Of a stretch of DNA of 29,052 nt, positions 4,145 through 27,300 are shown piece after piece. Origin of the DNA: a virus; IMG/VR virus record IMGVR_UViG_3300027969_000336, positions 1 to 29,052 of that record. One strand, written 5' to 3'. Below the pieces are notes generated by a model. The model searched no databases. It was not told the origin of the DNA and was given only the letters and a program-made list of their open reading frames with translations. Made by a program: the position numbers and the translations under genes. Numbering within the stretch: position 1 is the first letter of the stretch; each line of letters starts with the position of its first letter.

Positions 4145-4423
4145 ATGGCTACACAAGTTAAACCAACTACAAAAAATAGCCCCCCAATTAAAACTGGGTC
4201 TAATCGCAACAATAAACCCGCTTCAGCTTACGTTGATCGCGCTAAAGAGGCTACAAGCCAGCTTGCCGCACGCCCAAACAAAAGCAAGCTTGACGAGTAC
4301 GATGTGACTATTGGCAACATCAGCAAGTCTGCTGGTAATGAGCCTGTTAAAACAACCGGCATCAAGATGCGCGGTACAGGTGCAGCTACTAAAGGTCTGA
4401 TGTCACGAGGCCCGATGGCATGA
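4145..4423 (+). CDS. Small basic protein F with C-terminal RGTGAATKG motif
   Basis: 92 residues, rich in Lys, Asn, Thr and Ser in the first 30 positions (NSPPIKTGSNRNNKPASAYV), then a probable helix (DRAKEATSQLAARPNKSKL) and a Gly/Lys-rich end (GIKMRGTGAATKGLMSRGPM). The end loosely resembles the ADG-KGKTRG tails of proteins A to C. It likely belongs to the same kind of small virion-associated peptide. Its TGA overlaps the next ATG (ATGA at 4420-4423). The first 14 bases from the upstream stop (TAATCATGGCTACA at 4140) repeat those at 1700 before protein C. Confidence 0.75.
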   Translation: MATQVKPTTKNSPPIKTGSNRNNKPASAYVDRAKEATSQLAARPNKSKLDEYDVTIGNISKSAGNEPVKTTGIKMRGTGAATKGLMSRGPMA

Positions 4424-8091: not shown

Positions 8092-8970
8092 ATGTCTCTT
8101 AGTAAAGTTGGCGGGATTCTCTCAGCCGGTTTAAACGGCATTAACTACCCTGTCACAGCGGTGGAATACCTTGTCGTGGCTGGCGGGGGTGGTGGTGGAT
8201 GGCTAGGCGGTGGTGGTGGTGGTGGTGGTGTTCTATCTGCTACTGGTCTTTCAGTCACTATTGGCACTTCATACACAATTACTGTAGGTGCAGGTGGCGC
8301 AGCAACAACATCACAAGTTGCAAGTTCTAATGGTTCTAATTCTGTTTTTTCATCCATTACAGCCACTGGCGGTGGAGGCGGTGGGACTTATGACATTAGT
8401 TCTGGCGCAGGGCGTACTGGCGGTTCTGGTGGAGGTGGGGCAGCAACTGGCTCAGGAGGCGGTGCTGGAGGTGCGGGTACAAGCGGTCAAGGATTTGCAG
8501 GCGGTGCTGGACAAGGCCCATCTCCTTTTACTGGTGCTGGTGGTGGCGGTGCTGGCTCAGTTGGCATTGGCGCAACGGCTAGTGTAAAAGCAGGCGATGG
8601 TGGAACTGGATTAGCAAGTTCAATTTCAGGCTCTCAAATATTTTATGCTGGAGGTGCTGGTGGTGGCACACAGGCTTTGCCTTTTGGTATTGGTGCGGCT
8701 GGCGGTGGCAATGGTTGTCAAACTTCACCAGTAAGTTTAAATAGCACTGGATTGGCAAATACTGGCGGTGGCGGTGGTGCTGGTGGTAATCCATCTGGTG
8801 GAACTCCTGCTGTTTTATTTAATGGTGCGGCTGGTGGCTCTGGAATCGTAATTCTCCGCTACCCCTCTTACTTAGCCCCTGCTACATCAACAACAGGCTC
8901 ACCAGAAACTTATGTCACAGGCTTTTGGCGTGTGTACAGATTCGTTGCCTCTGGCACGATTACTTTCTAA
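8092..8970 (+). CDS. Polyglycine adhesin-like protein 1
   Basis: 292 residues. Residues 1-23 (MSLSKVGGILSAGLNGINYP) form a short unique head. From residue 24 the shared domain begins with VEYLVVAGGGGGG. It continues with TVGAGGAA, SVFSSITATGGGGGG, GGSGGGGA, GAGGGGAG, YAGGAGGG, NTGGGGGAGG and GGSGIVILRYP, and closes with VYRFVASGTITF. This is the glycine-rich domain of phage tail tips (PF21722-type). Runs of glycines separated by short loops recall the polyglycine-II sandwich of the S16 gp38 adhesin, where loops bind the receptor. Role as a receptor-binding tip is inference. First of four such genes (five domain copies). Codon use is dominated by GGT/GGC. Confidence 0.8.
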   Translation: MSLSKVGGILSAGLNGINYPVTAVEYLVVAGGGGGGWLGGGGGGGGVLSATGLSVTIGTSYTITVGAGGAATTSQVASSNGSNSVFSSITATGGGGGGTYDISSGAGRTGGSGGGGAATGSGGGAGGAGTSGQGFAGGAGQGPSPFTGAGGGGAGSVGIGATASVKAGDGGTGLASSISGSQIFYAGGAGGGTQALPFGIGAAGGGNGCQTSPVSLNSTGLANTGGGGGAGGNPSGGTPAVLFNGAAGGSGIVILRYPSYLAPATSTTGSPETYVTGFWRVYRFVASGTITF

Positions 8971-8979
8971 GGGATAAAA

Positions 8980-9831
8980 ATGGCAACGGGTCTTTTTACT
9001 CTCAGACAACAAAACCAAGCCCTAAGACAAGGGGCATGGAGTGGTACGCAAAAGACTGCTTGGGTTGAATATCTAGTTGTTGCTGGTGGCGGTGGTGGTG
9101 GCGGTCAAATTGCTGGTGGCGGTGGCGCAGGTGGTTTACTAACTGGCATATTAACTGTTGCCACAGGAACATCTATTACTGCAACTGTTGGTGGCGGTGG
9201 CACTTATGGGCTTGACCAAAACACAACTGGAACAAATGGTGTTAGTTCTGTATTTTCAACTATAACTGCATTAGGTGGAGGCGTAGGTGCTTCTATGGTT
9301 GCGGGCAATGGTATTGGCGGTAGTGGCGGTAGTGGGGGCGGTGGTGCTACTCAATATGCAACAGGTACTGGTGGACAAGGAACTAGTGGACAAGGAAATG
9401 CTGGTGCAAATGGTAGCCCCTATGCGGGTGCTGGCGGTGGCGGTGGCGGTGCAGGGACTGTTGGACTTGTCGCAATAACTACAACAGGTGGTAATGGAGG
9501 CGCAGGGATTGCATCAGTAATCAATGGCACAGTAACTACTTATTCTGGTGGTGGCGGTGGTGGTGGCTCTGTTCGTGGTGCTGGCGGTGTAGGCGGTGGA
9601 GGTAATGGTGGTCAGGGCGGTATAGCGGCAGATGGCTCTACCAATACTGGCGGTGGTGGTGGTGGCGGTGGAAGTGGAGGTTATCGTGGCGGTAACGGAG
9701 GCTCTGGCATTGTCATCATTCGCTACCCAAGCACATTTGCTGATGCCGCAAGTGTGACCAATGGAACAAAAACATCTATTACTGGATGGACTGTTTACAC
9801 CTTCCTTTCTAGTGGTTCAATCACTTTCTAA
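8980..9831 (+). CDS. Polyglycine adhesin-like protein 2
   Basis: 283 residues. The unique head (ATGLFTLRQQNQALRQGAWS) differs from the other copies and could select the attachment site. Then VEYLVVAGGGGGGGQIAGGG, SVFSTITALGGG, GGSGGGGA, GAGGGGGGAG, TYSGGGGGGGS, NTGGGGGGGGSGG, GGSGIVIIRYP and VYTFLSSGSITF follow the same order as protein 1. The most variable parts lie between the glycine runs, as expected for receptor loops. The gene begins 12 bases after the T of the previous stop, in TAAGGG context. Confidence 0.8.
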   Translation: MATGLFTLRQQNQALRQGAWSGTQKTAWVEYLVVAGGGGGGGQIAGGGGAGGLLTGILTVATGTSITATVGGGGTYGLDQNTTGTNGVSSVFSTITALGGGVGASMVAGNGIGGSGGSGGGGATQYATGTGGQGTSGQGNAGANGSPYAGAGGGGGGAGTVGLVAITTTGGNGGAGIASVINGTVTTYSGGGGGGGSVRGAGGVGGGGNGGQGGIAADGSTNTGGGGGGGGSGGYRGGNGGSGIVIIRYPSTFADAASVTNGTKTSITGWTVYTFLSSGSITF

Positions 9832-9840
9832 GGACAAAGC

Positions 9841-10716
9841 ATGAGTCAAACTTTATTAGGTGGATTCCTTTCCGCAACCTTTAATCCTTTGGCGGGTGAT
9901 AAGCCATCTACAGTTGAATACCTTGTGGTTGCTGGCGGAGGTGGCGGTGGTGGGCGACCTTCTAGTCAGGTCGGTGCTGGTGGCGGCGGTGCTGGTGGTT
10001 TATTAACCCTAACAAATTTTCAAGTTGCCACTGGGTCTTCTTTAACCATTACCGTTGGGGCTGGTGGCGCTGGTGGCGCGGGCGGCTCTAACACACAAGG
10101 TGTTTCAGGTTCTAACTCTGTTTTTAGTTCTATTACAGCTATTGGTGGTGGTGGCGCAAGTGGGGGCGGTGTTGCGGCGGCAACTGGCGGTAGTGGTGGC
10201 GGCGCTTTAGGTGGCTCAGACTCAGGCGGATCAGGTACTGGAGGGCAAGGCAATGCTGGTGGCGGTTCTGGAAATCAAAGCCCAAGTTACTCTGGTGCTG
10301 GTGGCGGCGGTGCTGGAAGTCAAGGACAAAATCAAGTTGGCGGTGGATACCAAGCTGGTAATGGTGGTGCAGGTTTAGTTTCTACGATTTCAGGGTCTTC
10401 TGTTCAATATGCTGGTGGCGGCGGTGGCGGAAGTGGAAGTGGCGGTTATCCGGGATTAACTTCTGGCGGAGGCGGCGGCGGTGGAAATGCTGGAAATGGA
10501 ACCGCAGGCACTGCAAATACAGGTGGTGGCGGCGGCGGTGGTTCTTCAACAGCGGGAACTGGTTATGCTGGCGGCGCTGGCGGTTCTGGGATTGTAGTTA
10601 TTCGTTACCCCACATCACAACAAGCACCTGCTTCCACAACCGGAAGCCCTCAGATAAGATATGCTGATGGGTATCAGATTTATATTTGGACATCTTCTGG
10701 CACAGTAACTTTTTAA
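9841..10716 (+). CDS. Polyglycine adhesin-like protein 3
   Basis: 291 residues. Head SQTLLGGFLSATFNPLAG, then VEYLVVAGGGGGGG, TVGAGGAGGAGG, SVFSSITAIGGGG, GGSGGGALGG, GAGGGGAGS, YAGGGGGGSGSGG, NTGGGGGGG, GGSGIVVIRYP and IYIWTSSGTVTF. Same domain order as proteins 1 and 2, with expanded glycine runs. The segment between the RYP motif and the final TF (SQQAPASTTGSPQIRYADGY) resembles the same segment in protein 1 (TSTTGSPETYVTGF). Stop/SD fusion TAAGGAG at the end leads to the small gene at 10726. Confidence 0.8.
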   Translation: MSQTLLGGFLSATFNPLAGDKPSTVEYLVVAGGGGGGGRPSSQVGAGGGGAGGLLTLTNFQVATGSSLTITVGAGGAGGAGGSNTQGVSGSNSVFSSITAIGGGGASGGGVAAATGGSGGGALGGSDSGGSGTGGQGNAGGGSGNQSPSYSGAGGGGAGSQGQNQVGGGYQAGNGGAGLVSTISGSSVQYAGGGGGGSGSGGYPGLTSGGGGGGGNAGNGTAGTANTGGGGGGGSSTAGTGYAGGAGGSGIVVIRYPTSQQAPASTTGSPQIRYADGYQIYIWTSSGTVTF

Positions 10717-10725
10717 GGAGAAAAT

Positions 10726-11079
10726 ATGAGCCATTTTGCAAAAGTAGAAAACGGTGTAGTGACGCAAGTCATCGTCATCGAGCAGGACGTTTTAAACCTT
10801 GGTCACTGGGGCGACCCAGCATCTTGGGTTCAAACAAGTTACAACACTTCTGGTGGAGTTCACTCGCAAGGCGGTACACCGTTGCGTAAGAATTTTGCTG
10901 GTATTGGATTTACATACGACTCGGGCCGTGATGCGTTTATTCCTCCAAAGCCATTTGCGTCTTGGTTGCTAAATGAAAGCACTTGTCAATGGGATGCACC
11001 TACAGCCATGCCTGTTGAAGAAGGTAAGATGTTTACATGGGACGAACCCACAACATCTTGGGTTGAAGTAATCGCCTAA
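10726..11079 (+). CDS. Small conserved tail-associated protein (cyanophage-type)
   Basis: 117 residues: SHFAKVENGVVTQVIVIEQD, GDPASWVQTSYNTSGGVHSQ, LRKNFAGIGFTYDSGRDAFI, PPKPFASWLLNESTCQWDAP and TWDEPTTSWVEV. The blocks WVQTSYNT, LRKNxAGIGxTYDxxRDAFIPPKP and W.LNE.TC.WDAP match a small protein known from T4-like cyanophage and other marine phage structural regions, whose role is not established. It interrupts the polyglycine array, with a TAAGGAG ribosome site. It is not glycine-rich and is well conserved, so it may be a fibre assembly or cap component (inference). Confidence 0.75.
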   Translation: MSHFAKVENGVVTQVIVIEQDVLNLGHWGDPASWVQTSYNTSGGVHSQGGTPLRKNFAGIGFTYDSGRDAFIPPKPFASWLLNESTCQWDAPTAMPVEEGKMFTWDEPTTSWVEVIA

Positions 11080-11090
11080 TAGGAATAATC

Positions 11091-12779
11091 ATGGCTCAAT
11101 ACAGTGGAATGTGGACGCTAAGTCAAGTCAGTCAAGCCGTAAAAGACTTGAATTGGACGGGCATTCCTCCGTCTGTCGTTGAGTATTTGATTGTTGCTGG
11201 AGGCGGTGCAGGTGGTTACAACCTTGGCGGTGGAGGTGGTGCTGGTGGTGTGCTTTCTGGCTACGCAGGAATTACATTAGGTTCTTCATACTTTGTAACT
11301 GTTGGTGCTGGTGGCGCGGCTGGTGGTAATGGCGCTACTACAGGGTCTGGTGGTGCTTCTGTTTTTAATGCTACTAGTTCAGGTGCATCTACAGGATCTA
11401 TTGTTGCTACGGGTGGTGGATATGGCGGCTCAGGATACACCACACCAATTGCTGGCGGCAGTGGTGGCTCTGGCGGCGGTGGCGGCGCACAAGGTGGGCC
11501 TGCTCTTACTGGAGGAGCCGGAATTTCTGGGCAAGGAAGCAGTGGCAGTAGTTCTAGTTCGTCAAGTTATGCTGGTGGCGGCGGTGGCGGTGCAGGTACA
11601 GTTGCAAGTACGGCTGTCTATATTGGCCCACCGGGAATTGGCGGTAACGGCGGTCAAGGTGTTGCATCTGCCATAAGCGGTTCTGTAGTTACATATGGCG
11701 GCGGAGGCGGCGGTTCATGTAATAGCACCTCTCCGGGCGCAGGGGGAGCAGGAGGTGGTGGCAATGCCGTAACTTCTGGCACTGCCATATCTGGAATTAC
11801 AAATACTGGTGGTGGCGGAGGTGGAGGTTGTTTTTTTGGCTCTGGCGGTGATGCTGGAGCAGGTGGGTCAGGTATTGTCATACTTCGCTACCCCGGCTCA
11901 ATTCAGTATTTTACTGGTGGCACAGTAACTTATGCCGCTGGTTATGTCGTTCACTCGTTTACATCTTCAGGCACATTGGCCCCAACAACGGCTACTAATT
12001 TGCTTGGTGCAAACACAATCGTTTTCTTTGCTTCTGGTACATGGACAGCCCCTACAGGCGCTACACAAGTTCAGTATTTAGTTGTAGCGGGCGGTGGTGG
12101 CGGTGGTAGTTGGATGGGTGGAGGCGGCGGCGCTGGTGGCTTCCGTACTGCTACAGGCTTATCTGTGACTGCCGGAACAACCTACACGGTTACTGTTGGC
12201 GCAGGGGGTGCTGGTTCTGCAATTAGAGACACTGTTGCCACAAATGGATCAAATTCCGTTTTTAGTTCCATTACATCTACAGGCGGTGGATATGGCGGTG
12301 CTTCATCCATAGGAACTACATCTGCAAATTCTGGCGGATCAGGTGGTGGTGGATCAGGCACATATGCTGTTGGCTCTGGAAATACTCCATCAACATCACC
12401 TAGCCAAGGAAATAATGGCGGCGCTGGGTCTACTGCTGGCAGTGCTTATGGCGGCGGCGGCGGTGGTGGCGCAAGCGCAGTTGGTACGGCTGGTTCTGGT
12501 TCTGGCGGCGGTGCAGGTGGTGCGGGCACGGCATCTAGCATCACAGGAATTTCTATTACTTATGCTGGCGGAGGCGGCGGCGGAAATAATACTAGTACAC
12601 GCGCTTCTGGAGGTGCTGGCGGTGGTGGGGCTGGTGGCGCTGGGCCTACCATTACAGGTGCTGGAGTTGCTGGAACTGCTAATACAGGTGGTGGTGGCGG
12701 CGGTGCTTGCAATGATGGTAATAACTCTTATGCCTCTGGTAACGGCGGCTCTGGCATCGTAATCATCAAGTGGAGCTAA
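11091..12779 (+). CDS. Double-domain polyglycine adhesin-like protein 4
   Basis: 562 residues, about twice the size of the other polyglycine proteins. Copy 1 runs from VVEYLIVAGGGAGG (residues 29-42) through GGSGIVILRYPGS to a VHSFTSSGTLAPT closing segment. Copy 2 starts near residue 310 with IVFFASGTWTAPTGATQ, then VQYLVVAGGGGGGSWMGGGG, SVFSSITSTGGGYGG, YAGGGGGGN, NTGGGGGG, and ends GGSGIVIIKWS without the closing SGTITF strand. It is thus an internal tandem duplication. The N-terminal head (AQYSGMWTLSQVSQAVKDL) is distinct. GGAG at 12772-12775, within its last codons, serves the next gene. Receptor-tip role inferred. Confidence 0.8.
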   Translation: MAQYSGMWTLSQVSQAVKDLNWTGIPPSVVEYLIVAGGGAGGYNLGGGGGAGGVLSGYAGITLGSSYFVTVGAGGAAGGNGATTGSGGASVFNATSSGASTGSIVATGGGYGGSGYTTPIAGGSGGSGGGGGAQGGPALTGGAGISGQGSSGSSSSSSSYAGGGGGGAGTVASTAVYIGPPGIGGNGGQGVASAISGSVVTYGGGGGGSCNSTSPGAGGAGGGGNAVTSGTAISGITNTGGGGGGGCFFGSGGDAGAGGSGIVILRYPGSIQYFTGGTVTYAAGYVVHSFTSSGTLAPTTATNLLGANTIVFFASGTWTAPTGATQVQYLVVAGGGGGGSWMGGGGGAGGFRTATGLSVTAGTTYTVTVGAGGAGSAIRDTVATNGSNSVFSSITSTGGGYGGASSIGTTSANSGGSGGGGSGTYAVGSGNTPSTSPSQGNNGGAGSTAGSAYGGGGGGGASAVGTAGSGSGGGAGGAGTASSITGISITYAGGGGGGNNTSTRASGGAGGGGAGGAGPTITGAGVAGTANTGGGGGGACNDGNNSYASGNGGSGIVIIKWS

Positions 12780-14999: not shown

Positions 15000-17135
15000 A
15001 TGCCATTACAAAAAGTTTTATTTAAGCCGGGCGTCAACCGTGAAAATACCCGCTACACCAATGAAGGTGGCTGGTATGAGTCGGATAAAATCAGGTTTCG
15101 CCAAGGCACTCCAGAGGTTATTGGCGGGTGGGAACCTTTATCTGCTGACACATACCTTGGCGTTTGCCGTTCATTGTGGAATTGGGTAACGCTTGGTGGT
15201 GATAACCTAATTGGAATTGGCACAAACCTTAAGTTCTATTTGGCGCAAGGTGGTGTGTTTTATGACATTACGCCGATTCGCGCAACTTCCACGATTGACA
15301 ACAATCCTTTTGTAGCAACCGCTAGCTCCGCCACAATCACAGTTACAGACACAAATCATGGCTGTATAACGGGCGATTTTGTAACCTTTAGCGGCGCAGT
15401 TGGCTTAGGCGGCAACATCACAGCCGCTGTTTTAAACGCTGAATACCAAGTTTCGGTTATCAATGCTAACAGCTACACGTTTACTGCGTCTGCTACCGCT
15501 AATGCAACAGATGCTTTAGGTTCCCCCGGCGGCGGTGCTTCGGTTGTTGCGACGTATCAAATTAACGTCGGCCCGGCAATCCCCGCCCCCTTGACCGGCT
15601 GGGGCGCTGGTACTTGGGGTAGTCCTCCCCCTGTTGCACCCCCTTCAACTATTGGCACATGGGGTTATGGTACAACTTCAACAGTTGCTTTGCGCCTGTG
15701 GAATCAAATTAACTATGGTGAAGATCTAGTGTATGGCCCCCGTACAGGCGGTATTTATTATTGGAATGCAACCAACACCGTTACTACTCGGGGCGTATTG
15801 CTTAACAGCCTTGGCGGTACAGTCACATTTACAAATGCTTCGCCGACTGTGGTGACTTCCACTATTCTTTATACAGAAGGTGCGGCAATTCAATTCTCTG
15901 GTGGTTCGCTACCTACCGGTGTATCTGCAGCTACTACATACTACGTCTATACTGTTAATGGGTTGACATTTAATCTGCTTGATAATGCTGGCAACGTAGT
16001 TAACACATCTTCTACGGGCTCCGGCTCTGTGTCTTTAATTGTTGACGTACCTACTGTACAGAACAACATAACGGTGTCGGATAGTTCACGCTTTTTAATT
16101 GCTTTTGGCTGCAATGACTACAACTCCAGCGTACTTGATCCTATGCTGATCCGTTGGTCAGCGCAGGACGACCCTTACAACTGGACACCTGATCCTACAA
16201 ACCAAGCAGGGTTTACTCGCCTATCTCATGGCTCAGAGATTGTTACAACTGTACAGACCCGCCAAGAGATTGTGGTATTTACGGACTCCAGCGTGTATTC
16301 GCTGCAGTATCTTGGCCCACCATATGTATGGGCAGCGCAGCTTCTTGGCGATAATGTTTCGATCATGAGTCCTAACTCGGCAGTGATTGCTTCCGGCGTT
16401 ATTTACTGGATGGGCGTGGATAAATTCTACGCATATGATGGTCGTATACAAACGCTTAATTGTGATCTGCGCCGATATGTGTTCCAAGATTTAAACCAAG
16501 AACAAGCGCTCCAAGTTTTTTGTGGTACAAACGAAGGTTTTAACGAAGTATGGTGGTTCTACTGTTCAGCCGACAGCACTGCTATTGACAAGTACGTAAT
16601 CTATAACTACGTTGAAAAAGTTTGGTATTACGGCACAATGTCTCGTACAGCTTGGCTTGATTCGGGATTACTATCGTACCCCGTTGCCGCCTATTACACC
16701 AGCAGTACCGCTACAGGTAACTTAATCAACCATGAGACTGGTTTGAATGACAATACAACCGGCACTGCTGCTGCGATTGACGCTTATATTTCTTCGTCTG
16801 AGTTCGATATTGGTGACGGCCATAATTTTGGCTTTGTCTGGCGTGTGCTGCCGGACTTAACTTTTGGTGATTCTACGAATGCGCCTTCTGGTGCGGTTCC
16901 AGTAATAACTATGACCCTATATGGTCTGACGAATTCTGGCTCTGGTAGAACAAGTAGCGCAAGTCAGAATGTATCTAGCAGTAGCACCTATGACATTACC
17001 GAAGAGTTTACTGGGCAGATTTACACCCGTATGCGCGGTCGCCAAATGATTTTTAAAGTTAGGTCGAACCAGCTTAATACAGCTTGGCAGTTGGGTGCCC
17101 CTCGTATTGATATACGACCAGACGGACGACGTTGA
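15000..17135 (+). CDS. Tail hub, P22 gp10-like
   Basis: 711 residues. N-terminus MPLQKVLFKPGVNRENTRYT, ESDKIRFRQGTPEVIGGW and YLGVCRSLWNWVTLGGDNLI is typical of the large gp10-like tail hub/packaged-DNA stabilisation family of short-tailed phages. Two beta-rich inserts occur, about residues 104-180 (ATITVTDTNHGCITGDFVTF) and 270-350 (TVTFTNASPTVVTSTILYTE). A Trp-Gly insert (LTGWGAGTWGSPPP, TIGTWGYG) resembles the modules of the 6199-7038 protein. The C-terminal half is mostly beta (FTDSSVYSLQYLGPPYVWAA, FYAYDGRIQTLNCDLRRYVF), ending RIDIRPDGRR. It would sit below the adaptors and hold fibres. No strong ribosome site precedes the ATG. Confidence 0.75.
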   Translation: MPLQKVLFKPGVNRENTRYTNEGGWYESDKIRFRQGTPEVIGGWEPLSADTYLGVCRSLWNWVTLGGDNLIGIGTNLKFYLAQGGVFYDITPIRATSTIDNNPFVATASSATITVTDTNHGCITGDFVTFSGAVGLGGNITAAVLNAEYQVSVINANSYTFTASATANATDALGSPGGGASVVATYQINVGPAIPAPLTGWGAGTWGSPPPVAPPSTIGTWGYGTTSTVALRLWNQINYGEDLVYGPRTGGIYYWNATNTVTTRGVLLNSLGGTVTFTNASPTVVTSTILYTEGAAIQFSGGSLPTGVSAATTYYVYTVNGLTFNLLDNAGNVVNTSSTGSGSVSLIVDVPTVQNNITVSDSSRFLIAFGCNDYNSSVLDPMLIRWSAQDDPYNWTPDPTNQAGFTRLSHGSEIVTTVQTRQEIVVFTDSSVYSLQYLGPPYVWAAQLLGDNVSIMSPNSAVIASGVIYWMGVDKFYAYDGRIQTLNCDLRRYVFQDLNQEQALQVFCGTNEGFNEVWWFYCSADSTAIDKYVIYNYVEKVWYYGTMSRTAWLDSGLLSYPVAAYYTSSTATGNLINHETGLNDNTTGTAAAIDAYISSSEFDIGDGHNFGFVWRVLPDLTFGDSTNAPSGAVPVITMTLYGLTNSGSGRTSSASQNVSSSSTYDITEEFTGQIYTRMRGRQMIFKVRSNQLNTAWQLGAPRIDIRPDGRR

Positions 17136-17782
17136 TGGCTTCTAGCGGTCGCATCATTAACCCCGCAGTACCCAACTTACCATTGGGGACGAAGGAGTAC
17201 GAACAGCGCTATCAAGACCAATTTACAAACATTTTGCGTCTGTATTTTAACCAACTGCGTAATTCATTAAATGAGTTGCTTGGCGGTGCCGGAGGCAAGT
17301 ACATTGCATTTCCTTACGGAGCATTTTCAAGCTACACCAGCCAGTCCACAACTGCCAATACAGCTACGTTACTAACCATGTCTAATACAGACTTCTCCAA
17401 TGCTGTATCGCTTCAGTCAGGGTCGAAGATAACGGTAGAGAATGCTGGTATTTACAACCTGCAGTTTAGTGTGCAAGTGCAAAATTTAGATAACGCGCCG
17501 CAGGATATGTATATCTGGCTTCGTCAAAATGGCACGGACATTGTGGGTTCTACTGGGGTACTCGGACTCCCCGCCCGTAAAAATCCCGGTGATCCATCTC
17601 ATGACATTAAGGGCTGGAATTACTTTTTGTATATGAACGCTAACGATTACGTTCAAATCTATTGGTCGCCCACTATTGCAACGTTTACTATACCGACGTA
17701 CGCGGCTTCGGGCACGCCAACTAAACCATCAACTGCTTCTGTCGTAGCTACACTTTCATTTGTGTCTGCGCTACCAACATGA
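17135..17782 (+). CDS. Jelly-roll virion protein (C1q/TNF-like)
   Basis: 215 residues; ATG 17135 overlaps the previous TGA by one base (TGATG). The earlier TTG at 17132 would add one residue. Residues 1-50 are helical (YEQRYQDQFTNILRLYFNQL, RNSLNELLGG). The rest resembles a C1q/TNF jelly roll: YGAFSSYTSQSTTANTATLL, ITVENAGIYNLQFSVQVQNL, DMYIWLRQNGTDIVGSTGVL, WNYFLYMNANDYVQIYWSP and VATLSFVSALPT. This module recurs in aquatic phages next to gp10-like hubs, probably as a trimeric knob or fibre (inference). A 34-base gap follows, the largest in the window. Confidence 0.75.
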   Translation: MASSGRIINPAVPNLPLGTKEYEQRYQDQFTNILRLYFNQLRNSLNELLGGAGGKYIAFPYGAFSSYTSQSTTANTATLLTMSNTDFSNAVSLQSGSKITVENAGIYNLQFSVQVQNLDNAPQDMYIWLRQNGTDIVGSTGVLGLPARKNPGDPSHDIKGWNYFLYMNANDYVQIYWSPTIATFTIPTYAASGTPTKPSTASVVATLSFVSALPT

Positions 17783-17816: not shown

Positions 17817-20723
17817 ATGAGCCTTGCAGTACTAGCTGACCACATGGCATCAAAGGGTCGCGGCGGCGATTCGATGCTTATCCACATGGCCCCCCAAGAA
17901 GTTGCGGGGCTTCAAGCTTTGGCAATGGCCCACGGCGGCTCGCTTACGATTAATCCTGATACGGGTTTACCCGAAGCTCTTTCTTTAAAGAAATTGCTCC
18001 CAGCGATTATTGGTTTTGGCATTACAGCCATGACAGGTATCCCTGCTTGGCAGGTTGGCTTGGGTGTTGGCGCAGTTGAGACTGCCCGTACTGGCGATTT
18101 GGGTCGTGGTATTAGCGCAGGTCTTGGTGCCTATGGTGGCGCTGGTTTGGGCGCTAGTTTTACAGCAGCCCCAGTAGCGGAGATGGCGGGTTCTCAAATT
18201 GCGTCTCAAGCTGTGGATCAAGCCGCTTTAGAAGGTATTCAACTCCCATCAAACTACGCGGAAATGGCGGCAAAGACAGCTACTCCTGACCAGCTTATGG
18301 CGGCTAGAGATTCAATGTCGTTTGGAGATTTAGCAAGTAAAGGTGCAAAAGCTATTGCGGATAACCCATCAAGCGTACTCACTAAAGACAACTTTAAATA
18401 TTTAGCCGCCGCCGCTAGCCCTATCCTAGCTGGCGAAGCAGTTAAATCTAATATGCCCCAAACGGTTACTAAGCCCGGCGCAATTCGCCCTTATTCTTAT
18501 GACCCTTATGGTGGTGGTTTTACCGCATACCCTGAATACGAAGTCCCTAAGAGAGCCGCTAGTGGTGGAATTATGGGTTTTGATGAGAGCGTAAATTCGC
18601 CTATGTCCCATCAGAGCCTAAGCAACATGCAGGATACGGGTGGTATGTTTAACTACGCCCACGATGGTGGTGGCGTTATGCGCATGGCTCAAGGCGGTAT
18701 TGCTGGGTATGCTGATGGCGGCTCCGCTGCCGCTGCCTATGCTGCGGCTAACAACATTGATTTAAACAAAAACATTAATCAATGGATTACGGACAACCCC
18801 AACGCAAACCGCGCAACAATTGATGCCGAAATGAATAAGTACGGTATTAGTCAAGACGACGTAAATCGTGCTTTGTCTGGTAGTACAGTAACTTCAGCCG
18901 CAGTTGACTATGGGTTATCTCACGGCATGGGTCTGTCTGACATCAATCAGAACATTGCTAACTTTACTAACGTCACAAACAAGAACGCTACTGATGCACA
19001 AATTGATGCTGCGATGAGCCAGTACGGTATTAGCAATGAAGACGTTGCCCGTGCGTTAGCAGCTACTGGTGGTTCGCAAGGTGAGCAATACGCTGTTCTG
19101 GCCGGTAACATGGGTCTGTCTGGACTTAATCAAAATATCAATAGCTGGCTAGCTGCAAACCCTAAAGCTACTCTTGCCGACGCGCAAGCTGCTATGACTA
19201 CATCCGGCATTAACGAGGCCGACGTTCTGCGTGCTACGGGTAAATCTTTAACAGACTTGTATCCTAAAAAGCTTGTTTGTGGGGACGGTTTTGAGTTGAA
19301 TGCAGCAGGTACGGCGTGTGTAAAGAAAACGCTCACCTGCGGCCCCGGGTATGAACCAAATGCGGCTGGTACTGCTTGTGTGCCTATTACTAAGAAAACG
19401 CTTACTTGCGCAGAAGGGTATGAGCCAAATGCTGCCGGTACTGAATGCGTAAGGAAAACAACCACAGATACAAAAACTATTGTTTGCGGAGTTGGATTCC
19501 ACCCAAGTATTGATGGTAAATCGTGCGTTAAAGACTTAGAAATTGTTGATGATTTCCATTTTTGCCCCACTGGTCAACATTGGGACGCTAGCGCAGGTAA
19601 ATGTGTAGCAAATATTAGCGCAACGCAAGAAACAACCACCACTGTAGACACACCTACGAGTTTAACCACAGCCGTTGATACCGCTCTGCCTGTTGGTGTA
19701 TCCGGTACAACTGGCCCATCTATTATTGGTGGCGGCTCGACAGTCAATCCCAACGGCACAATTACAACTTCTCCAGTTATCCCCGGCATCCCAGTAGGTG
19801 GATTTACGGGTATGGAAGATGTACGTAATGCGTACACTAAAGGTGGCGGTAGTTTGGGTTACGTTCCCTACGCGCCAAAAACAATGGCTGAGTTCAACGC
19901 CAAGTACAACAACTTGACTGGTGGTTCTAAGCAAGCCTACGATTATTTGACGGGTAAGGCTCCTTACTCCCCAACACCTTTTACTCCAACTGGGCAAATC
20001 TTCAAGCCTTACTCGGAGGCTATGGGTATTCCGCAAGACTTAACAAAACGCATGTATATTTTTGATCCCGCGACAAAAACGTACAAACGTAACCCTGACT
20101 ACAAACCACCTTCATACGCAACTGCTGGTACTGCGGCAGCTACGGGTTCAACTACGGGTACTACAGGCGCGGCAACTGATTTAACAGATCAGTCCAAGCC
20201 ACCAACTACTGATCCCGGGCCCGGTAATGAATGGTTATGGGACTACGACAGCAAGAAATGGTACGCCTCAGAGATTCAAAGATCTGCTAACGGTGGTTTG
20301 ATGGCTGAAGGTGGCTTAGCTGCTTTGACTATGGCTCGCGGTGGTAATACGCACGCGCCATTCTTCTCAAAGTCGACTGGTAAATTTACTTCACGAGCCC
20401 CACAGGTTTACGCAGATGGCGGTATGGCTGAGCAATTCAACCTTGGCGGTTACTCTGATGGCGGCAGACTTTTGCGTGGCCCCGGTGATGGTGTGTCCGA
20501 TTCCATCCCTGCAACTATCGGTAACAAGCGTCCTGCACGTTTAGCCGACGGTGAATTTGTAGTGCCCGCACGTATTGTGTCTGAGTTAGGTAATGGCTCG
20601 ACGGAAGCTGGTGCACGCAAGTTGTACGCAATGATGGACAGAGTTCAAGCTGCCCGTAAAGGTTCAATCGGCAAAGGCAAAGTGGCTAACAACAGCCGTT
20701 CCGACAAATATCTTCCCGCATAA
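17817..20723 (+). CDS. Large internal/ejection protein with helical and C-x12-C repeats
   Basis: 968 residues. Residues 1-80 (MLIHMAPQEVAGLQALAMAH, GGSLTINPDTGLPEALSLKK) are a recurrent phage module. Gly/Ala-rich hydrophobic helices follow (about 60-125: LPAIIGFGITAMTG, GISAGLGAYGGAGLGASF), membrane-active in character. Residues about 309-482 hold three ~57-60 residue helical repeats with (M/I)xxYGIS-type and DVxRA cores. Residues 488-596 hold five C-x12-C repeats. A Pro/Thr-rich stretch follows. The end has repeated MAxGG and ADGG motifs, then GDGVSDSIPATIGNKRPARL, ADGEFVVPARIVSELGNGS, YAMMDRVQAARK and KYLPA, a domain common at C-termini of aquatic phage virion proteins. Role in DNA ejection is inferred from position and composition. 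Confidence 0.7.
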   Translation: MSLAVLADHMASKGRGGDSMLIHMAPQEVAGLQALAMAHGGSLTINPDTGLPEALSLKKLLPAIIGFGITAMTGIPAWQVGLGVGAVETARTGDLGRGISAGLGAYGGAGLGASFTAAPVAEMAGSQIASQAVDQAALEGIQLPSNYAEMAAKTATPDQLMAARDSMSFGDLASKGAKAIADNPSSVLTKDNFKYLAAAASPILAGEAVKSNMPQTVTKPGAIRPYSYDPYGGGFTAYPEYEVPKRAASGGIMGFDESVNSPMSHQSLSNMQDTGGMFNYAHDGGGVMRMAQGGIAGYADGGSAAAAYAAANNIDLNKNINQWITDNPNANRATIDAEMNKYGISQDDVNRALSGSTVTSAAVDYGLSHGMGLSDINQNIANFTNVTNKNATDAQIDAAMSQYGISNEDVARALAATGGSQGEQYAVLAGNMGLSGLNQNINSWLAANPKATLADAQAAMTTSGINEADVLRATGKSLTDLYPKKLVCGDGFELNAAGTACVKKTLTCGPGYEPNAAGTACVPITKKTLTCAEGYEPNAAGTECVRKTTTDTKTIVCGVGFHPSIDGKSCVKDLEIVDDFHFCPTGQHWDASAGKCVANISATQETTTTVDTPTSLTTAVDTALPVGVSGTTGPSIIGGGSTVNPNGTITTSPVIPGIPVGGFTGMEDVRNAYTKGGGSLGYVPYAPKTMAEFNAKYNNLTGGSKQAYDYLTGKAPYSPTPFTPTGQIFKPYSEAMGIPQDLTKRMYIFDPATKTYKRNPDYKPPSYATAGTAAATGSTTGTTGAATDLTDQSKPPTTDPGPGNEWLWDYDSKKWYASEIQRSANGGLMAEGGLAALTMARGGNTHAPFFSKSTGKFTSRAPQVYADGGMAEQFNLGGYSDGGRLLRGPGDGVSDSIPATIGNKRPARLADGEFVVPARIVSELGNGSTEAGARKLYAMMDRVQAARKGSIGKGKVANNSRSDKYLPA
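18741..19262 (+). repeat. Three helical repeats, ~57-60 residues each
   Basis: Copies at about 18741-18910, 18911-19090 and 19096-19262 share L(N/S)xN(I)N/xxW, then D/A-x-I-D-A-x-M-x-x-Y-G-I-S-x-x-D-V-x-R-A. Examples: IDAEMNKYGISQDDVNRAL, IDAAMSQYGISNEDVARALA, AQAAMTTSGINEADVLRATG. They are protein-level repeats, with DNA diverged, so duplication is old. Confidence 0.75.
19278..19604 (+). repeat. Five C-x12-C repeats
   Basis: Encodes CGDGFELNAAGTAC, CGPGYEPNAAGTAC, CAEGYEPNAAGTEC, CGVGFHPSIDGKSC and CPTGQHWDASAGKC, each Cys pair exactly 12 residues apart. Linkers are Lys/Thr-rich. Copies 1-3 are near-identical at the protein level, copies 4-5 divergent. Confidence 0.9.
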
Positions 20724-20734
20724 GGAGCCGATAA

Positions 20735-21769
20735 ATGGCTGATACCCCAACACAAATAACGCAAACGAACTACGGCTTTGCACCGGAAATTGCTCCTTAT
20801 GCGCAAGGCTTGTTAGGCCAAGCGCAAGCATTGACTGACACTGAATACAACCCGTACATGCAGTATCAGGGAGAGCGCGTTGCTCAATTCTCCCCATTGC
20901 AAAACCAATCGTATGAAAATGCAGCGTTAATGCAAACTCAGCCCCAGTTGCAGGACGCAACTGCTTTGGCGGGCGAAGCGGGATTAGGCGCTATAAACAC
21001 TGGGTATACATATAACCCATTCCAAACGCAGTCGTTTACTAGCCCTCAAATGGCTGAGAGCTACATGTCTCCGTACATGCACAATGTAGTAGAGCGTCAG
21101 CAAAATGATGCTAATCGCCAAGCCGCAATTGCTCAGCAGGCTCAGGGAGCCCAAGCTGCTCGTTCCGGTGCGTTTGGTGGTAGCGGTGACTATCTTATGC
21201 GTGCTCAAGCTGCTGGTAACTTAGCCCGTCAAAAGGGCGACATTATGGCCCAAGGTCAGCAAGCCGCTTACCAACAAGGCATGGGTCAGTTCAATACAGA
21301 ACAAGCTGCTACACAAAACGCTGCCCAGTTAAATGCGCAACAAGGTCAGTTTGGTGCGGGTCTAGGTCTTCAAGGTTTACAAACAGCACTGACTGCATCA
21401 AATGCACTCGGCAATCTGGGTAACATGCAGTACCAGCAAAACATGGGCGTTAACGCATTGCAGAACCAATACGGTTTGCAACAACAAGCGCAGATGCAGA
21501 CTGACATAAACAACAAGTATCAGGACTTTTTGAACTATCAAAACTACCCATACAAACAATTGGGTTTCATGTCAGACATTATTCGCGGTGTACCATTGAC
21601 TTCTACAGGTTCGTCTGTATACACAGCTCCTCCTTCCACAGCACAAACTGTTGCTTCGTTAGGTCTTGGCGCTGCTGGGGTTAGCAAACTTTGGGGTGGT
21701 GCTAATGGTGGTGTGGCTATGTCTAATGGTGGCGGTCTTGGCGCGCTTGCTCTGAACAACTTGGTCTAA
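20735..21769 (+). CDS. Gln/Ala-rich helical internal (ejection) protein
   Basis: 344 residues. N-terminal YGFAPEIAPYAQGLLGQAQA, then YQGERVAQFSPLQNQSYENA. The middle has SYMSPYMHNVVERQQNDANR, QAAIAQQAQGAQAARSGAFG and GSGDYLMRAQAAGNLARQKG. A Gln/Ala/Asn-rich helical region follows (QFNTEQAATQNAAQLNAQQG), then NYPYKQLGFMSDIIRGVPL and a Gly-rich end (WGGANGGVAMSNGGG). The SGAFGGS...Q block followed by a QNYPYKQLGFMSDxxRG motif is a recognised pattern of large Gln-rich virion proteins in aquatic short-tailed phages, probably internal proteins ejected with DNA (T7 gp14/P22 gp7-type position). No enzymatic motif. ATG follows TAAGGAG; stop is a TAAGGA fusion. Confidence 0.75.
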   Translation: MADTPTQITQTNYGFAPEIAPYAQGLLGQAQALTDTEYNPYMQYQGERVAQFSPLQNQSYENAALMQTQPQLQDATALAGEAGLGAINTGYTYNPFQTQSFTSPQMAESYMSPYMHNVVERQQNDANRQAAIAQQAQGAQAARSGAFGGSGDYLMRAQAAGNLARQKGDIMAQGQQAAYQQGMGQFNTEQAATQNAAQLNAQQGQFGAGLGLQGLQTALTASNALGNLGNMQYQQNMGVNALQNQYGLQQQAQMQTDINNKYQDFLNYQNYPYKQLGFMSDIIRGVPLTSTGSSVYTAPPSTAQTVASLGLGAAGVSKLWGGANGGVAMSNGGGLGALALNNLV

Positions 21770-23272: not shown

Positions 23273-24382
23273 ATGCCCATCTATGAATACCAAGGTAAGC
23301 AATACGATATTGCTACCGACGACCCATCTGCAGCTAAAACTAAGATTCTTAGTTACCTTGGTACTCAGGAAGCACCCCCTGCGCAAGCCCTTGCGCCCAA
23401 ACCTACGCAACCTGCGGCGTCTGCTGATTTCGACTTTGGTTCTCCTATGGGAACTGGTTCAGAAGAAATCATGGCAGCGGCGCAGGCTAAGCCTAGTGTT
23501 CCTCCGGTTAAGAGCGTACTGACAGGCCGCGAAGTTGAATACGATGAGGAAGCTTTAAACCGTGCATCCCGCCGCAAATATGTAGAGCAGGGTGTTAAGG
23601 AAGCCGAGCGCCTCACGGCAGTAGGTAAGCAAAAGTTGGACATTAAAAAAGCCGGGCGTGAAAGACTGCGCCAAGAAGCCGCAAACGAGAACTATGGCTT
23701 TCTAGACTTTGCCGCTGACTCTGGTATCGACTTGACCAAAGGTGTAGTCGGCTTGGGTGAGACCTACGTTGGTTTGCTCAACCTTACTTCGGGCGGTGCG
23801 GCGGGCAAGGTGTTAGGGCGTATGGGCTATGACCCAGAACGTACAACTGAATTCTTAAATGGTTTCCAATCTCTTACTCGTAAAGACGCACGGCAAAGTG
23901 TTAAAGAGGCTGAAGGTTTTCTCGATACCCTAGCTGCGCTGTCTGTTAACCCAACAGAACTGATTGGTTCTGTAGTTGAGTCCCTTCCCGGCACAGTTGC
24001 GTCTGGCGGCGTAGGCGGTAAGTTTGTTCGCTCTATTGTTAGCAAAGCCGCGCTTGAAGCAGAAGGCTTAGGGTTAGTCGGCCAGCAGGCTCAAAACTTT
24101 ATTACCCAAAAAGTTAAAGACCAGACATACCGCATCGCGGCTGTTACTGGTAGTGCAGAAGGCGCACAAACCGCTGGTTCTATTGCTGAAAAAGCCCGCC
24201 AAAAAGACGAGACTGGAGTGATTACGTTGTACCGGCAATTGCTGCTGGTTTTGGTACGGCTGCGGTTTCTGCAGTATCCGGTAAAGTTGCACAGAAACTT
24301 GGTATTGGCGACGTTGAAACTAATATTGCTGCGCGATCGGCAGGTGTTAAGGGTATTGGTACTGGAGAAGGCGCATACCTAA
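23273..24382 (+). CDS. Large polyvalent virion protein, N-terminal part (frame-disrupted)
   Basis: Opens MPIYEYQGKQYDIATDDPSA (a short N-terminal module common to large phage proteins), then a Pro-rich linker (residues 35-90) and a helical region with DIKKAGRERLRQEAANENYG. A membrane-active Gly/Ala stretch follows: GVVGLGETYVGLLNLTSGGA, FLDTLAALSVNPTELIGSVV, PGTVASGGVGGKFVRSIVSK. The plausible protein sequence ends at about residue 315 (EKARQKDETG). The remaining ~55 codons (VITLYRQLLLVLVRLRFLQY and on, to TAA at 24380-24382) are an out-of-frame reading of the following region, so this ORF is the front of a longer gene continued in frame 1. SD: none strong before ATG 23273; the stop of the previous gene is 8 bases upstream. 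Confidence 0.7.
   Translation: MPIYEYQGKQYDIATDDPSAAKTKILSYLGTQEAPPAQALAPKPTQPAASADFDFGSPMGTGSEEIMAAAQAKPSVPPVKSVLTGREVEYDEEALNRASRRKYVEQGVKEAERLTAVGKQKLDIKKAGRERLRQEAANENYGFLDFAADSGIDLTKGVVGLGETYVGLLNLTSGGAAGKVLGRMGYDPERTTEFLNGFQSLTRKDARQSVKEAEGFLDTLAALSVNPTELIGSVVESLPGTVASGGVGGKFVRSIVSKAALEAEGLGLVGQQAQNFITQKVKDQTYRIAAVTGSAEGAQTAGSIAEKARQKDETGVITLYRQLLLVLVRLRFLQYPVKLHRNLVLATLKLILLRDRQVLRVLVLEKAHT
24190..24222 (+). other. Frame break inside the polyvalent gene
   Basis: Frame 2 coding (SIAEKARQKDETG) passes into frame 1 coding (DYVVPAIAAGFG) within this interval. Frame 1 is blocked upstream by TGA at 24187-24189, so the change must occur after it. An A5 run at 24201-24205 is the obvious indel site: one missing A would restore a continuous reading (K-R-R-D-W-S-D-Y). 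No XXXYYYZ slippery heptamer is present in the correct phase, so a programmed shift is not supported. Confidence 0.75.
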
Positions 24383-27300
24383 CTAGGTTGTTTAAAGAGG
24401 TGTTCAAAGAAGGCGTACTTGAAGAGATGCCTCAAGGAACCCAAGAACAGATTTTTACCAACCTTGCTACCGGTCGCCCATGGGATGAAAACATTGGCAA
24501 AGCCGCTGCTCAAAGTTTAATGACCGGTATAGCTATGGCTGGTGGTCATAGCACAGGCGTTGCTGCGCTGCAAAAAACTTCTTCCACATTAAATAATGCT
24601 TTGTTTGGTCTCTCTAAAGAACAGCAAAAGCAGCAAGAAGAAGAGCTAAAACAAACTGAAGAAGCGCCCCCACCTCCACCACCTCCACCACCTCCGCCAC
24701 CTGCGGCTACTGCGGAAAAGCAACCATCCTCTGAAGTGCAGGCCGATCAAGCCCGGGCCGATAAAATTACTGCGCTTACGCAAGTATTAGAGAAGCAGGG
24801 CATACCCGCAGATAATGCCGAGAGGATTGCTACACGCAGAGTCGATGCGGAGTTAAAAGCTGAAAACAAAGTTGCAGCTATTAAAGTACCCGAAGGTCGT
24901 GTAGAACAAATCACACAGGACTTAATTGCGGCTGGAGTTCCACCACAACAGGCAAAGATTGACGCACAGCAATTAGCTCAAGAGGAGGCACAATCAGATG
25001 AGCTTGCGCAGACAGAAACAGGAGGAACAGCAAATGTTGCTGAACCTATCAGTACTCCAAGTGGAGAAAGCGTTAGCATGGCTGGACAGCCCAGTCCAGA
25101 ACCCCCCGCCGGAGGAGTTGGAGTCATTGAGCCAAGTGGAGTGGTTTCTACTAGACCGGATGTTGCAGGAGTTACTGTTGGAGAAACAGTCGAGCCGCCT
25201 GCACTAGTGGAAGCGCCCCCTGCGGAAACACCTGCGGAAACACCTGCGGAAACAACCGCTAAAACTACTATTGGTGAATCCGTTTTATGGCAAGGGAACC
25301 CCGTTAAAGTTCTAAGCAAACCTAATGTTGAGCCAGATGGAATTTCTTATACAAGAGTCAAGTTTCAAAATGCTGCTGGAACCTTTGAGGGCGAAGGCGC
25401 AACAGATCACTATATTCCTACCGAAGAATTAAACACAGAAGCCCCACCAGAAACTGAAGGAGCCCAACTTGGCACTGAAACCTCTGAAGCCATCAAAACA
25501 ACGCAAGAAGGACAAGCGGCACCAACAGCCGGAGCAGGTAAAGGTAAAGGCAAACGTGGTCGGCCACCTGTTCAGCAACGCCACGTAGTTACAGAAAACT
25601 CCGAAGGCGGGTTTGACCACGTTACAAATGGCGAAGTAACTGCAACGTACGCAAATAAAAAGCAAGCTATTGCAGCTGTCAATCTAGCTAAGGCGCAAGA
25701 TGACAACAACCCTGTAAAAGTTGCTAAGTTTCAAGCCGAACTAGATAAAGCACTTGCCTCAAAAGGTAAAGGCCGACCAGCTAAGGCTGTGTCAGAAGAA
25801 GGTGTAGAGGAGCTAAACCGAGAAGATAAAGTAGAGCTTGATGCTTTGGAGTCGGCGCTTGAAGCGTACAACTCACCCGGAAGTAAAGACAAAATACAGG
25901 GCGCAGCAGAATACATTAACGATGCTGCTAACGATAAGACTGCGCCTGAAGCAGTGCGTAAACGTGCCAAGCAAATGCTTGAGGATGACGTTGATCCAAA
26001 GGATATCCCTAAGAAGTTGCGTTCTTCTGAAGCAAAAGTAGCCAAGCCTGACACAGGGTTTAGCAAGCTGACTAACGGCTCACAAGCAATTGCGCAGATT
26101 ATCAAGACTGGTAATCTGTTCCAGCGGTTTGTTGCGCAACGTATCCGCAACTTTGTAGTCGGCGTTAAGTTCGTAGTTGTTGAGAAAGGCGATCCAATGC
26201 CGCCCGAGTTGAGTGGCGCTCGTGGATTGTTTGTTTATACACCCGGGTCTAAAGAACGTACCATATACGTGCGTGGTAGTAGCTTTGGAGACCAACAAGG
26301 CATAAATAACATAACAGTGCTACACGAATTGCTGCACGCAGCAACGGCTAGTCGTATTGAAGCAGGTCTATTAAAAGGCTTTAAGAACGCTAGCCTTCAG
26401 AAGTTTATGCGTGAGATGGAAAGCTTGATGAAGCGTACGCAAGAAGCGTATGAAGAAGGCGTGCTGTTTGGCGATATTCCTCCCGCAGTGCAGCAAATGA
26501 TTGAAGGCACTACTGACCGCGATAGAACCGGCAAGATAGTTATAGGTGTGTTTGCCGACCCACATGAGTTCTTGGCTTACGGCATGTCTAGCCCTGAATT
26601 CCAGAAGTTCTTAATGAGCGTACAAGGTACACGTGGCACGGGCTTCTCTGGGTTCGTTACTAGTATCCGTGATTTGTTTGGTGTTAAGCAAAGTGAAGCT
26701 ACTGCGTTTACTGACTTAGTCGACATTACCGACAAAATGCTTGGTAAAAGACTGACCCGAGTTGAAACTAAAGCTGGCGCGCTTCCGCAAAAAGACGGCT
26801 TTACTCCTCCCGAATTTGACGAGCAAGCAGATATTAGAGTAAAACGTTCCGCTTTAGAACTAGAACGTGACGCACGCAAGGCAAAACAAAACGTAGCTAA
26901 CTCACGTGAAGGCGATATAGCTACGGCTGTAGAAGCTATGCAGAAAGAACGTGACCCGTCTAAGGTGCGTCAGATTCTTTCTAACGCTTGGAGTTGGGCC
27001 GACTACAAACAACGTGAAGCCATGGTGCGCTTGCCTACGTTTGATTTCCTTGCAAAGTGGGCTGCCGAAAAAGGTATTAGTGCGCTTACCCAAACCAACG
27101 TATACCTTGAACGTATGTTGGGTATGTCTCAGCAGTTCTTGGCTGGTGCTGAACAAATTGTCGGTATGCTTGACCGTGGGTTTAAAGAAGACAAAAACCT
27201 TAGCCGCAAGGCATTTGAAGACTTTGTATACGCAACTACTATTGCTGAGATTGACCCTTCTAACCCCAATGCAGTTGAGCGTAGCGTAACCCTTGACAAA

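Follow-up and report, generated by a model that had tools for sequence, protein, structure and literature searches.

Disulfide-ready half-EGF hairpins as candidate swappable inserts in a large phage protein of the ejection cassette

Introduction

Phage internal proteins are made in the reducing cytoplasm, and disulfides are therefore seldom considered in them. What, then, might regularly paired cysteines (Cys) do in such a protein? The question is raised by a virus record of 29,052 bases (IMG/VR record IMGVR_UViG_3300027969_000336, positions 1 to 29,052; this whole stretch is called the window below), whose gene at 17817..20723 (ORF and translation; + strand, as are all window features below) encodes a phage protein of 968 aa with five Cys units, which belongs to the head/ejection cassette. 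A sequence-only reading had likened these units to EGF-like and other secreted Cys-rich repeats, and had proposed that in an internal, ejected protein their disulfides would form only outside the cytoplasm, so that folding could be triggered in the periplasm. In the literature on phage disulfides, EGF-like domains, ejection proteins or prohead core proteins, no description of such units was recognised by title or start of abstract, and one may exist; what is new here, in our judgement, is that phage head and ejection proteins would carry disulfide-ready hairpins as modular inserts.

Results

Layout of the protein and its five cysteine units

The 968-aa protein begins with a conserved N-terminal domain (aa 1-153; 17817..18275) of hydrophobic, Gly-rich helices, delimited by alignments A1 and A2, hydropathy and the structural model. 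Its highest 19-residue Kyte-Doolittle mean is 1.53 (aa 60-78), the model places helices within 55-139, and the domain is present in 94 loci. At aa 304-474 (18726..19238; model secondary structure) there follow three repeats of about 61 aa, each predicted to form four helices, in agreement with the DNA repeats D2 and D3, whose spacing is 183. The conserved C-terminal region (20463..20720, including DGVSDSIPATIGNKRPARLADGEFVVPARIVSELGNGS; alignment A1) is also found in Planktothrix phage Pag-Yong1, with 50% identity over aa 893-953; the Pag-Yong1 relative has no Cys. Across the family the N- and C-terminal parts are conserved and the middle is hypervariable (alignments A1 and A2).

All ten Cys of the protein lie within 19278-19604 and form five C-x12-C units, so that the sequence-only reading was exact in its count and coordinates; the codon of Cys488 begins at 19278 and that of Cys596 finishes at 19604. 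The units are unit 1, CGDGFELNAAGTAC (Cys 488/501; 19278..19319; model strands 492-494/501-503); unit 2, CGPGYEPNAAGTAC (508/521; 19338..19379; strands 512-514/521-523); unit 3, CAEGYEPNAAGTEC (531/544; 19407..19448; strands 535-537/544-546); unit 4, CGVGFHPSIDGKSC (557/570; 19485..19526; strands 561-563/570-572); and unit 5, CPTGQHWDASAGKC (583/596; 19563..19604; strands 587-590/595-598). The G(Y/F)xxNAAGTxC pattern that had been ascribed to the repeats holds for units 1-3; units 4 (GFHPSIDGKSC) and 5 (GQHWDASAGKC) are divergent and keep the x12 spacing but not the NAAGT core.

Such regularity is hardly expected by chance. When ten Cys were placed at random in 968 aa, at least five spacings of 13 residues arose in 0 of 200,000 trials, and when they were packed at random into the same 112 aa, in 29 of 200,000 (27 with five, 2 with six). 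The remaining 32 genes of the window hold 34 Cys per 8,558 aa (0.4%). The linkers 544-557 and 570-583 are likewise x12, which leaves the last six Cys evenly spaced and gives seven C-x12-C matches in total. By comparison with related sequences, the Cys pairing is set by homology, spacing alone being insufficient: the within-unit spacing is constant at 13 in relatives, and the between-unit spacing is variable (7, 10, 13 and 13 in the window; 12, 13 or 15 in relatives). Units 1 and 2 are identical at 12 of 15 residues, yet 9 of the 12 codons for these shared residues differ, and a recent tandem duplication of units was rejected on this ground.

EGF likeness and predicted fold

With regard to the proposed EGF resemblance, Pfam cEGF (PF12662; cut-off 26.6) matches the whole protein at 30.8 bits (E 2.7e-7) and the 117-aa stretch at 44.7 bits (E 1.2e-11, three stretches). 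CPL1-like also exceeds its cut-off for the 117-aa piece (28.2 vs 27.4 bits), CBM_14 (chitin-binding) appears in unit 5 below cut-off (E 0.022), and NCBIfam gave no match above any cut-off. An EGF-like domain is defined by six Cys with an 'ababcc' disulfide order. Here there are two Cys per unit and ten in total, and a full EGF domain was rejected with four of the six Cys missing. Because these other EGF Cys are missing, the units are, as judged from their residues, half-EGF hairpins and not EGF domains; the resemblance thus held for the profile match and the predicted hairpins and failed for the complete domain.

AlphaFold2 models, whose overall confidence is low, contain five two-stranded hairpins, whether the stretch was modelled by itself (mean pLDDT 62.6) or as part of the entire protein (62.2). 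In the whole-protein model the pLDDT block means are 73-88 over aa 481-550 and lower for units 4-5. In every modelled unit the first Cys lies four residues ahead of strand 1 and the second Cys inside strand 2. When the low-confidence module model was compared by VIA-align, the best match was mGlu2 (Z 2.8, rmsd 4.8, 43 aligned), and the fibrillin fragment cbEGF9hyb2cbEGF10 gave Z 2.1 (rmsd 2.8, 34 aligned); the low-confidence whole model reached a best Z of 4.4 against the PDB. A PDB sequence search gave a best E of 0.016, and a BFVD search gave nothing at E <=0.001, with A0A6J5S8K4 at E 0.046 (56% identity over 104 columns). Cys-free hairpins are also predicted by the model at aa 640-652 and 747-758 (window 19734-20090), so this protein may have a longer series of hairpins, of which the Cys units would be the stapled ones.

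Cysteine pairs in the protein family

The family was assembled by an alignment-based search, of which the best 80 of at least 586 confirmed relatives were kept. The query alignment A1 had a Cys unit in 11 of its 14 rows, so the share of relatives with Cys is no population estimate. A set of 78 relatives (L094-L171) was fetched irrespective of Cys; L093 was left out of it because the same contig had already come in, as L009, through the Cys pattern, and L006 was counted as pattern-fetched for the same kind of reason. Cys is absent from 68 of these 78, which were drawn from the best 80 of at least 586; nine have C-x12-C pairs only, and one (L158) has three Cys, none of them in such a pair; 26 of the 29 Cys in the set sit in C-x12-C pairs. 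The nine pair-carriers are not all independent, as the hairpins of L099/L120 and of L137/L138 are identical. Since most relatives (68 of the 78) manage without Cys, the units are dispensable for the protein family. Over the 94 loci a consecutive Cys spacing of 13 occurs 32 times and the next commonest, 12 and 64, three times each, and in 15 of the 23 relatives with Cys the entire protein has two and no more.

The most direct comparison is offered by unit 5, an anchored site at which relatives can have Cys-less hairpins. It was located by the V-[PKA]-[NI] motif that follows it, with the pattern left free at both Cys positions, and 13 rows were matched. Both Cys are present in eight rows (the window itself, as L004, being counted among them), neither in five, and one alone in none. 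The five Cys-less rows have V/I, A/L, I/L, P/L and T/L in place of the pair, and their hairpins are one or two residues shorter. In L002 the whole Cys-unit region is absent and the flanks are conserved. That both Cys are present or absent together in the sequences speaks for a function as a pair, most simply in a disulfide, and the simplest reading of the pair would be a disulfide staple that is retained or lost together. The relatives show the Cys unit as what appears to be a swappable insert in the variable middle of the protein.

Among 51 family members, Pfam detects DUF4214 in five, cEGF in five, CBM_14 in one (E 2.6e-6) and PT-HINT in one. A Hint-type insert (PT-HINT E 4.3e-5, below cut-off) lies right behind the Cys hairpin at residues ~545-677 of L009:2-2902 (-), and supplies the only three extra Cys of that protein. 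A second pattern, of GYH(Y/F)D form, matched eight stretches, three of them on contigs found before, always with a within-unit spacing of 13 and with a variable linker. Six of the eight have the family N-terminal domain; of the other two, L191 has its 5' end cut off and L192 encodes a different short protein. The single hairpin of L192, CPTGFHFDEELKKC (- strand, 4160-4203), lies in a 175-residue open frame, which makes it another unrelated carrier. In phage isolates, the 968-aa query found five records with a best coverage of 6%, a second family member found three Planktothrix/Synechococcus phage records only, and the downstream gene found none.

Gene neighbourhood

The gene neighbourhood was compared over 92 loci, after L004, which is the window, and L093, which shares its contig with L009, had been dropped. 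A virion structural gene (phrog_3287; 15000..17135) lies upstream in 84 of the 92, and an immediate upstream gene that has no PHROG match (17132..17782) is directly upstream in 83. The downstream gene (20735..21769) encodes a relative of PHROG 4287 'DNA ejection protein' (E 2.9e-11), found downstream in 72 of the 92 loci; 72 is also the number of loci whose sequence runs on for 600 nt or more downstream. We take the gene order here to resemble that of P22, with its tail, gp14, gp7, gp20 and gp16 genes. It appears plausible that the 968-aa protein is internal and ejected, because of this gene order, the ejection-protein relative and the hydrophobic N-terminal helices. That part of the sequence-only reading thus remains reasonable, and a match to a known ejection family is missing: the PHROG matches of the protein are phrog_3503 and one weak match only. 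The literature on podovirus virion proteomes yielded no proteomic record of it. It was reported that functional domains are swapped among ejection proteins (PMC8954989), and the words 'disulfide' and 'cysteine' are absent from the main text of that review.

Elsewhere in the window, consecutive genes at 8092-12779 encode similar Gly-rich proteins with the motif EYL(V/I)VAGGG, probably tail-fibre paralogues. At 23273-24388 a large downstream protein appears split, by a sequencing error or a real break; a 369-aa ORF has an unrelated-looking tail at its end, and a 1555-aa ORF begins at 24388 in another frame.

The same hairpin in gp68-like prohead core proteins

Each of the 15 gp68-like prohead core proteins of T4-type phages that were read (L029, L030, L172-L178 and L182-L187; mostly Ackermannviridae, with those of X1, Bhz51 and ACP17 read without their N-terminal part) also has one C-x12-C hairpin, always in the same position. 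Thirteen of the 15 have no other Cys and two have one more. T4 gp68 has no Cys and shows a gap where the hairpin sits in the gp68-like proteins. Several gp68-like genes adjoin the prohead protease gene, and tblastn with one gp68-like protein matches 312 phage records. The similarity does not extend to the whole protein, the match being confined to residues 9-42 of the 117-aa query. In a proteomic study of phage Sajous1, a prohead core protein, which may differ from the gp68-like ones, is named among the virion proteins, and its peptide counts were low (PMC10892097).

The gp68-like core proteins are head-building by annotation, and head building takes place in the cytoplasm. That they carry the same hairpin speaks against a role outside the cytoplasm only, and the presence of a hairpin is thus no indication of export. 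The idea that disulfides form only outside the cytoplasm and trigger periplasmic folding loses its footing on several counts: all 15 gp68-like prohead core proteins that were read carry the hairpin, relatives replace both Cys so that the hairpin site can do without them, and virions are in any case surrounded by an oxidising medium once released. A periplasmic trigger for folding is thus one option among several and unproven.

Other viral and bacterial carriers

A pattern of NAxGT form with x12 matched 24 viral stretches, and an x13 control matched one, in a 43-residue open frame; a direct search of viral contigs with the 117-aa stretch gave no pattern match. Twelve of the 24 belong to the family of the 968-aa protein (11 by N-terminal profile and L020, whose N-terminus is cut, by tblastn), with one unit of NAxGT form each. 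L014 is a gp68-like protein, and L007, L018 and L019 look like chance open stretches. Unrelated viral carriers are L023 (14 units), L011/L016 (up to 8), L013, L021/L025 and L008/L028. The 14 tandem C-x12-C units of L023 lie in an unrelated phage protein of 1237 aa (L023:903-4613, +), and L016:12095-14746 (+) joins RTX calcium-binding repeats (E 8.2e-10) to eight C-x12-C hairpins in the part seen; both elements are of sorts usual in secreted proteins.

In bacteria, 62 loci match the pattern, and 24 of the 30 ORFs whose 5' end lies inside the locus have a signal-peptide-like N-terminus by a simple rule. Bacterial relatives of the hairpin thus look mostly secreted, as judged from these N-termini, and in this respect the expectation of related secreted repeats was borne out. 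The bacterial matches oftener have extra preceding Cys: a Cys at -2 occurs in 16 of 53 bacterial pattern matches vs 0 of 25 viral ones (ORFs of at least 80 aa), and a further Cys just before the match in 40 of 53 vs 7 of 25. Capture from a named host surface protein, which had been suggested for the repeat, was set aside; a search by pattern alone identified no close bacterial donor.

Discussion

In the most likely account, to which we give a probability of about 0.5, the units would each fold locally into a disulfide-ready hairpin, and the segment that they form would act as a spacer or make contacts in a protein that is ejected. The segment would consist of five tandem beta-hairpins of half-EGF (cEGF) type, in each of which the two Cys are probably joined by a disulfide, and the tandem would be inserted as a swappable unit in the variable middle of a large ejection-cassette protein. 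Briefly, the 968-aa protein would be packed in the head and would leave with or ahead of the DNA. The short loops would fold singly and give a tough, narrow, protease-resistant spacer or contact segment, positioned in the host envelope and flanked by the hydrophobic N-terminal and the conserved C-terminal parts. With a 14-residue loop the oxidised hairpin should remain narrow enough for tail passage, so oxidation could occur in the released virion or in the periplasm, and a periplasmic trigger would be unneeded.

The gp68-like proteins bring in a different account, in which the hairpin serves head-internal assembly through contacts that it makes, still in the reducing cytoplasm, to packaged DNA or inside the procapsid; the paired Cys would be buried thiols or oxidised only late, and the likeness to secreted repeats would be incidental. 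In all 15 cases a very basic protein has a single hairpin in a constant position; this, the absence of the hairpin from T4 gp68 and the several genes beside the prohead protease gene speak for such a role. However, gp68-like proteins and the 968-aa protein have only the hairpin in common, a short motif may arise twice, and bacterial carriers are mostly secreted-looking, so that we hold the assembly account to be rather improbable. It is also unlikely that the hairpins are just one kind of filler among several, a linker that is neutral or sets length and has no task of its own. The hypervariable middle, the 68 of 78 relatives without Cys and the helical repeats, DUF4214, Hint and hairpins found in different members would all suit a filler; two signs of selection tell against it, namely the residues that units 1 and 2 keep (12 of 15) despite nine differing codons and the Cys pair that is halved in 0 of 13 rows at the anchored site.

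Binding of host surface or glycans by a tail-exposed protein, after the manner of secreted Cys-rich repeats, would agree with the secreted-looking bacterial relatives and with CBM_14, weak in unit 5 (below cut-off) and present in 1 of 51 members. This seems very unlikely to us, as the gene sits between structural genes and the ejection-protein relative, and the conserved hydrophobic N-terminal helices suit an internal membrane-active protein better. Even less credible is the binding of a metal (zinc or iron-sulfur) by the Cys in place of disulfides. Ten Cys close by could ligate metals, but the two Cys of 15 of the 23 Cys-bearing relatives are too few for a usual four-ligand site in one chain, and C-x12-C with a variable linker is, to our knowledge, not a usual metal motif.

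A broader reading takes in tailed phages at large, where the half-EGF hairpin would be a general capsid-internal module and its disulfide would work as a redox clock. We regard this broader reading as speculative and doubtful. The module would be inserted or removed whole in at least two unrelated head proteins, the ejection-cassette protein and the gp68-like core proteins; the bond would be open during head building in the reducing cytoplasm, would close after virion release, and the closed bond would harden the internal protein for ejection. A paired, swappable Cys hairpin makes redox-dependent head maturation or genome ejection testable in laboratory phages, because the prohead core protein of cultured phages has the same hairpin.

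Three known systems can be set beside the units. Like cEGF-type domains, they have a C-x2-G-aromatic ... C hairpin with a long loop; unlike a full EGF-like domain, they keep the last Cys pair only, and the other four EGF Cys are absent. As with the podovirus ejection proteins (T7 gp14-gp15-gp16 and P22 gp7-gp20-gp16), the gene lies in a structural/ejection cassette, whereas the 968-aa protein has no sequence match to a known ejection protein. With the gp68-like proteins (PHROG 3503 'head scaffolding protein') it shares the same hairpin, as in CPPGYHPNAEGTACVP vs CGPGYEPNAAGTACVP, but theirs is a short, very basic core protein, and here the hairpins stand in a protein of 968 aa with other conserved ends.
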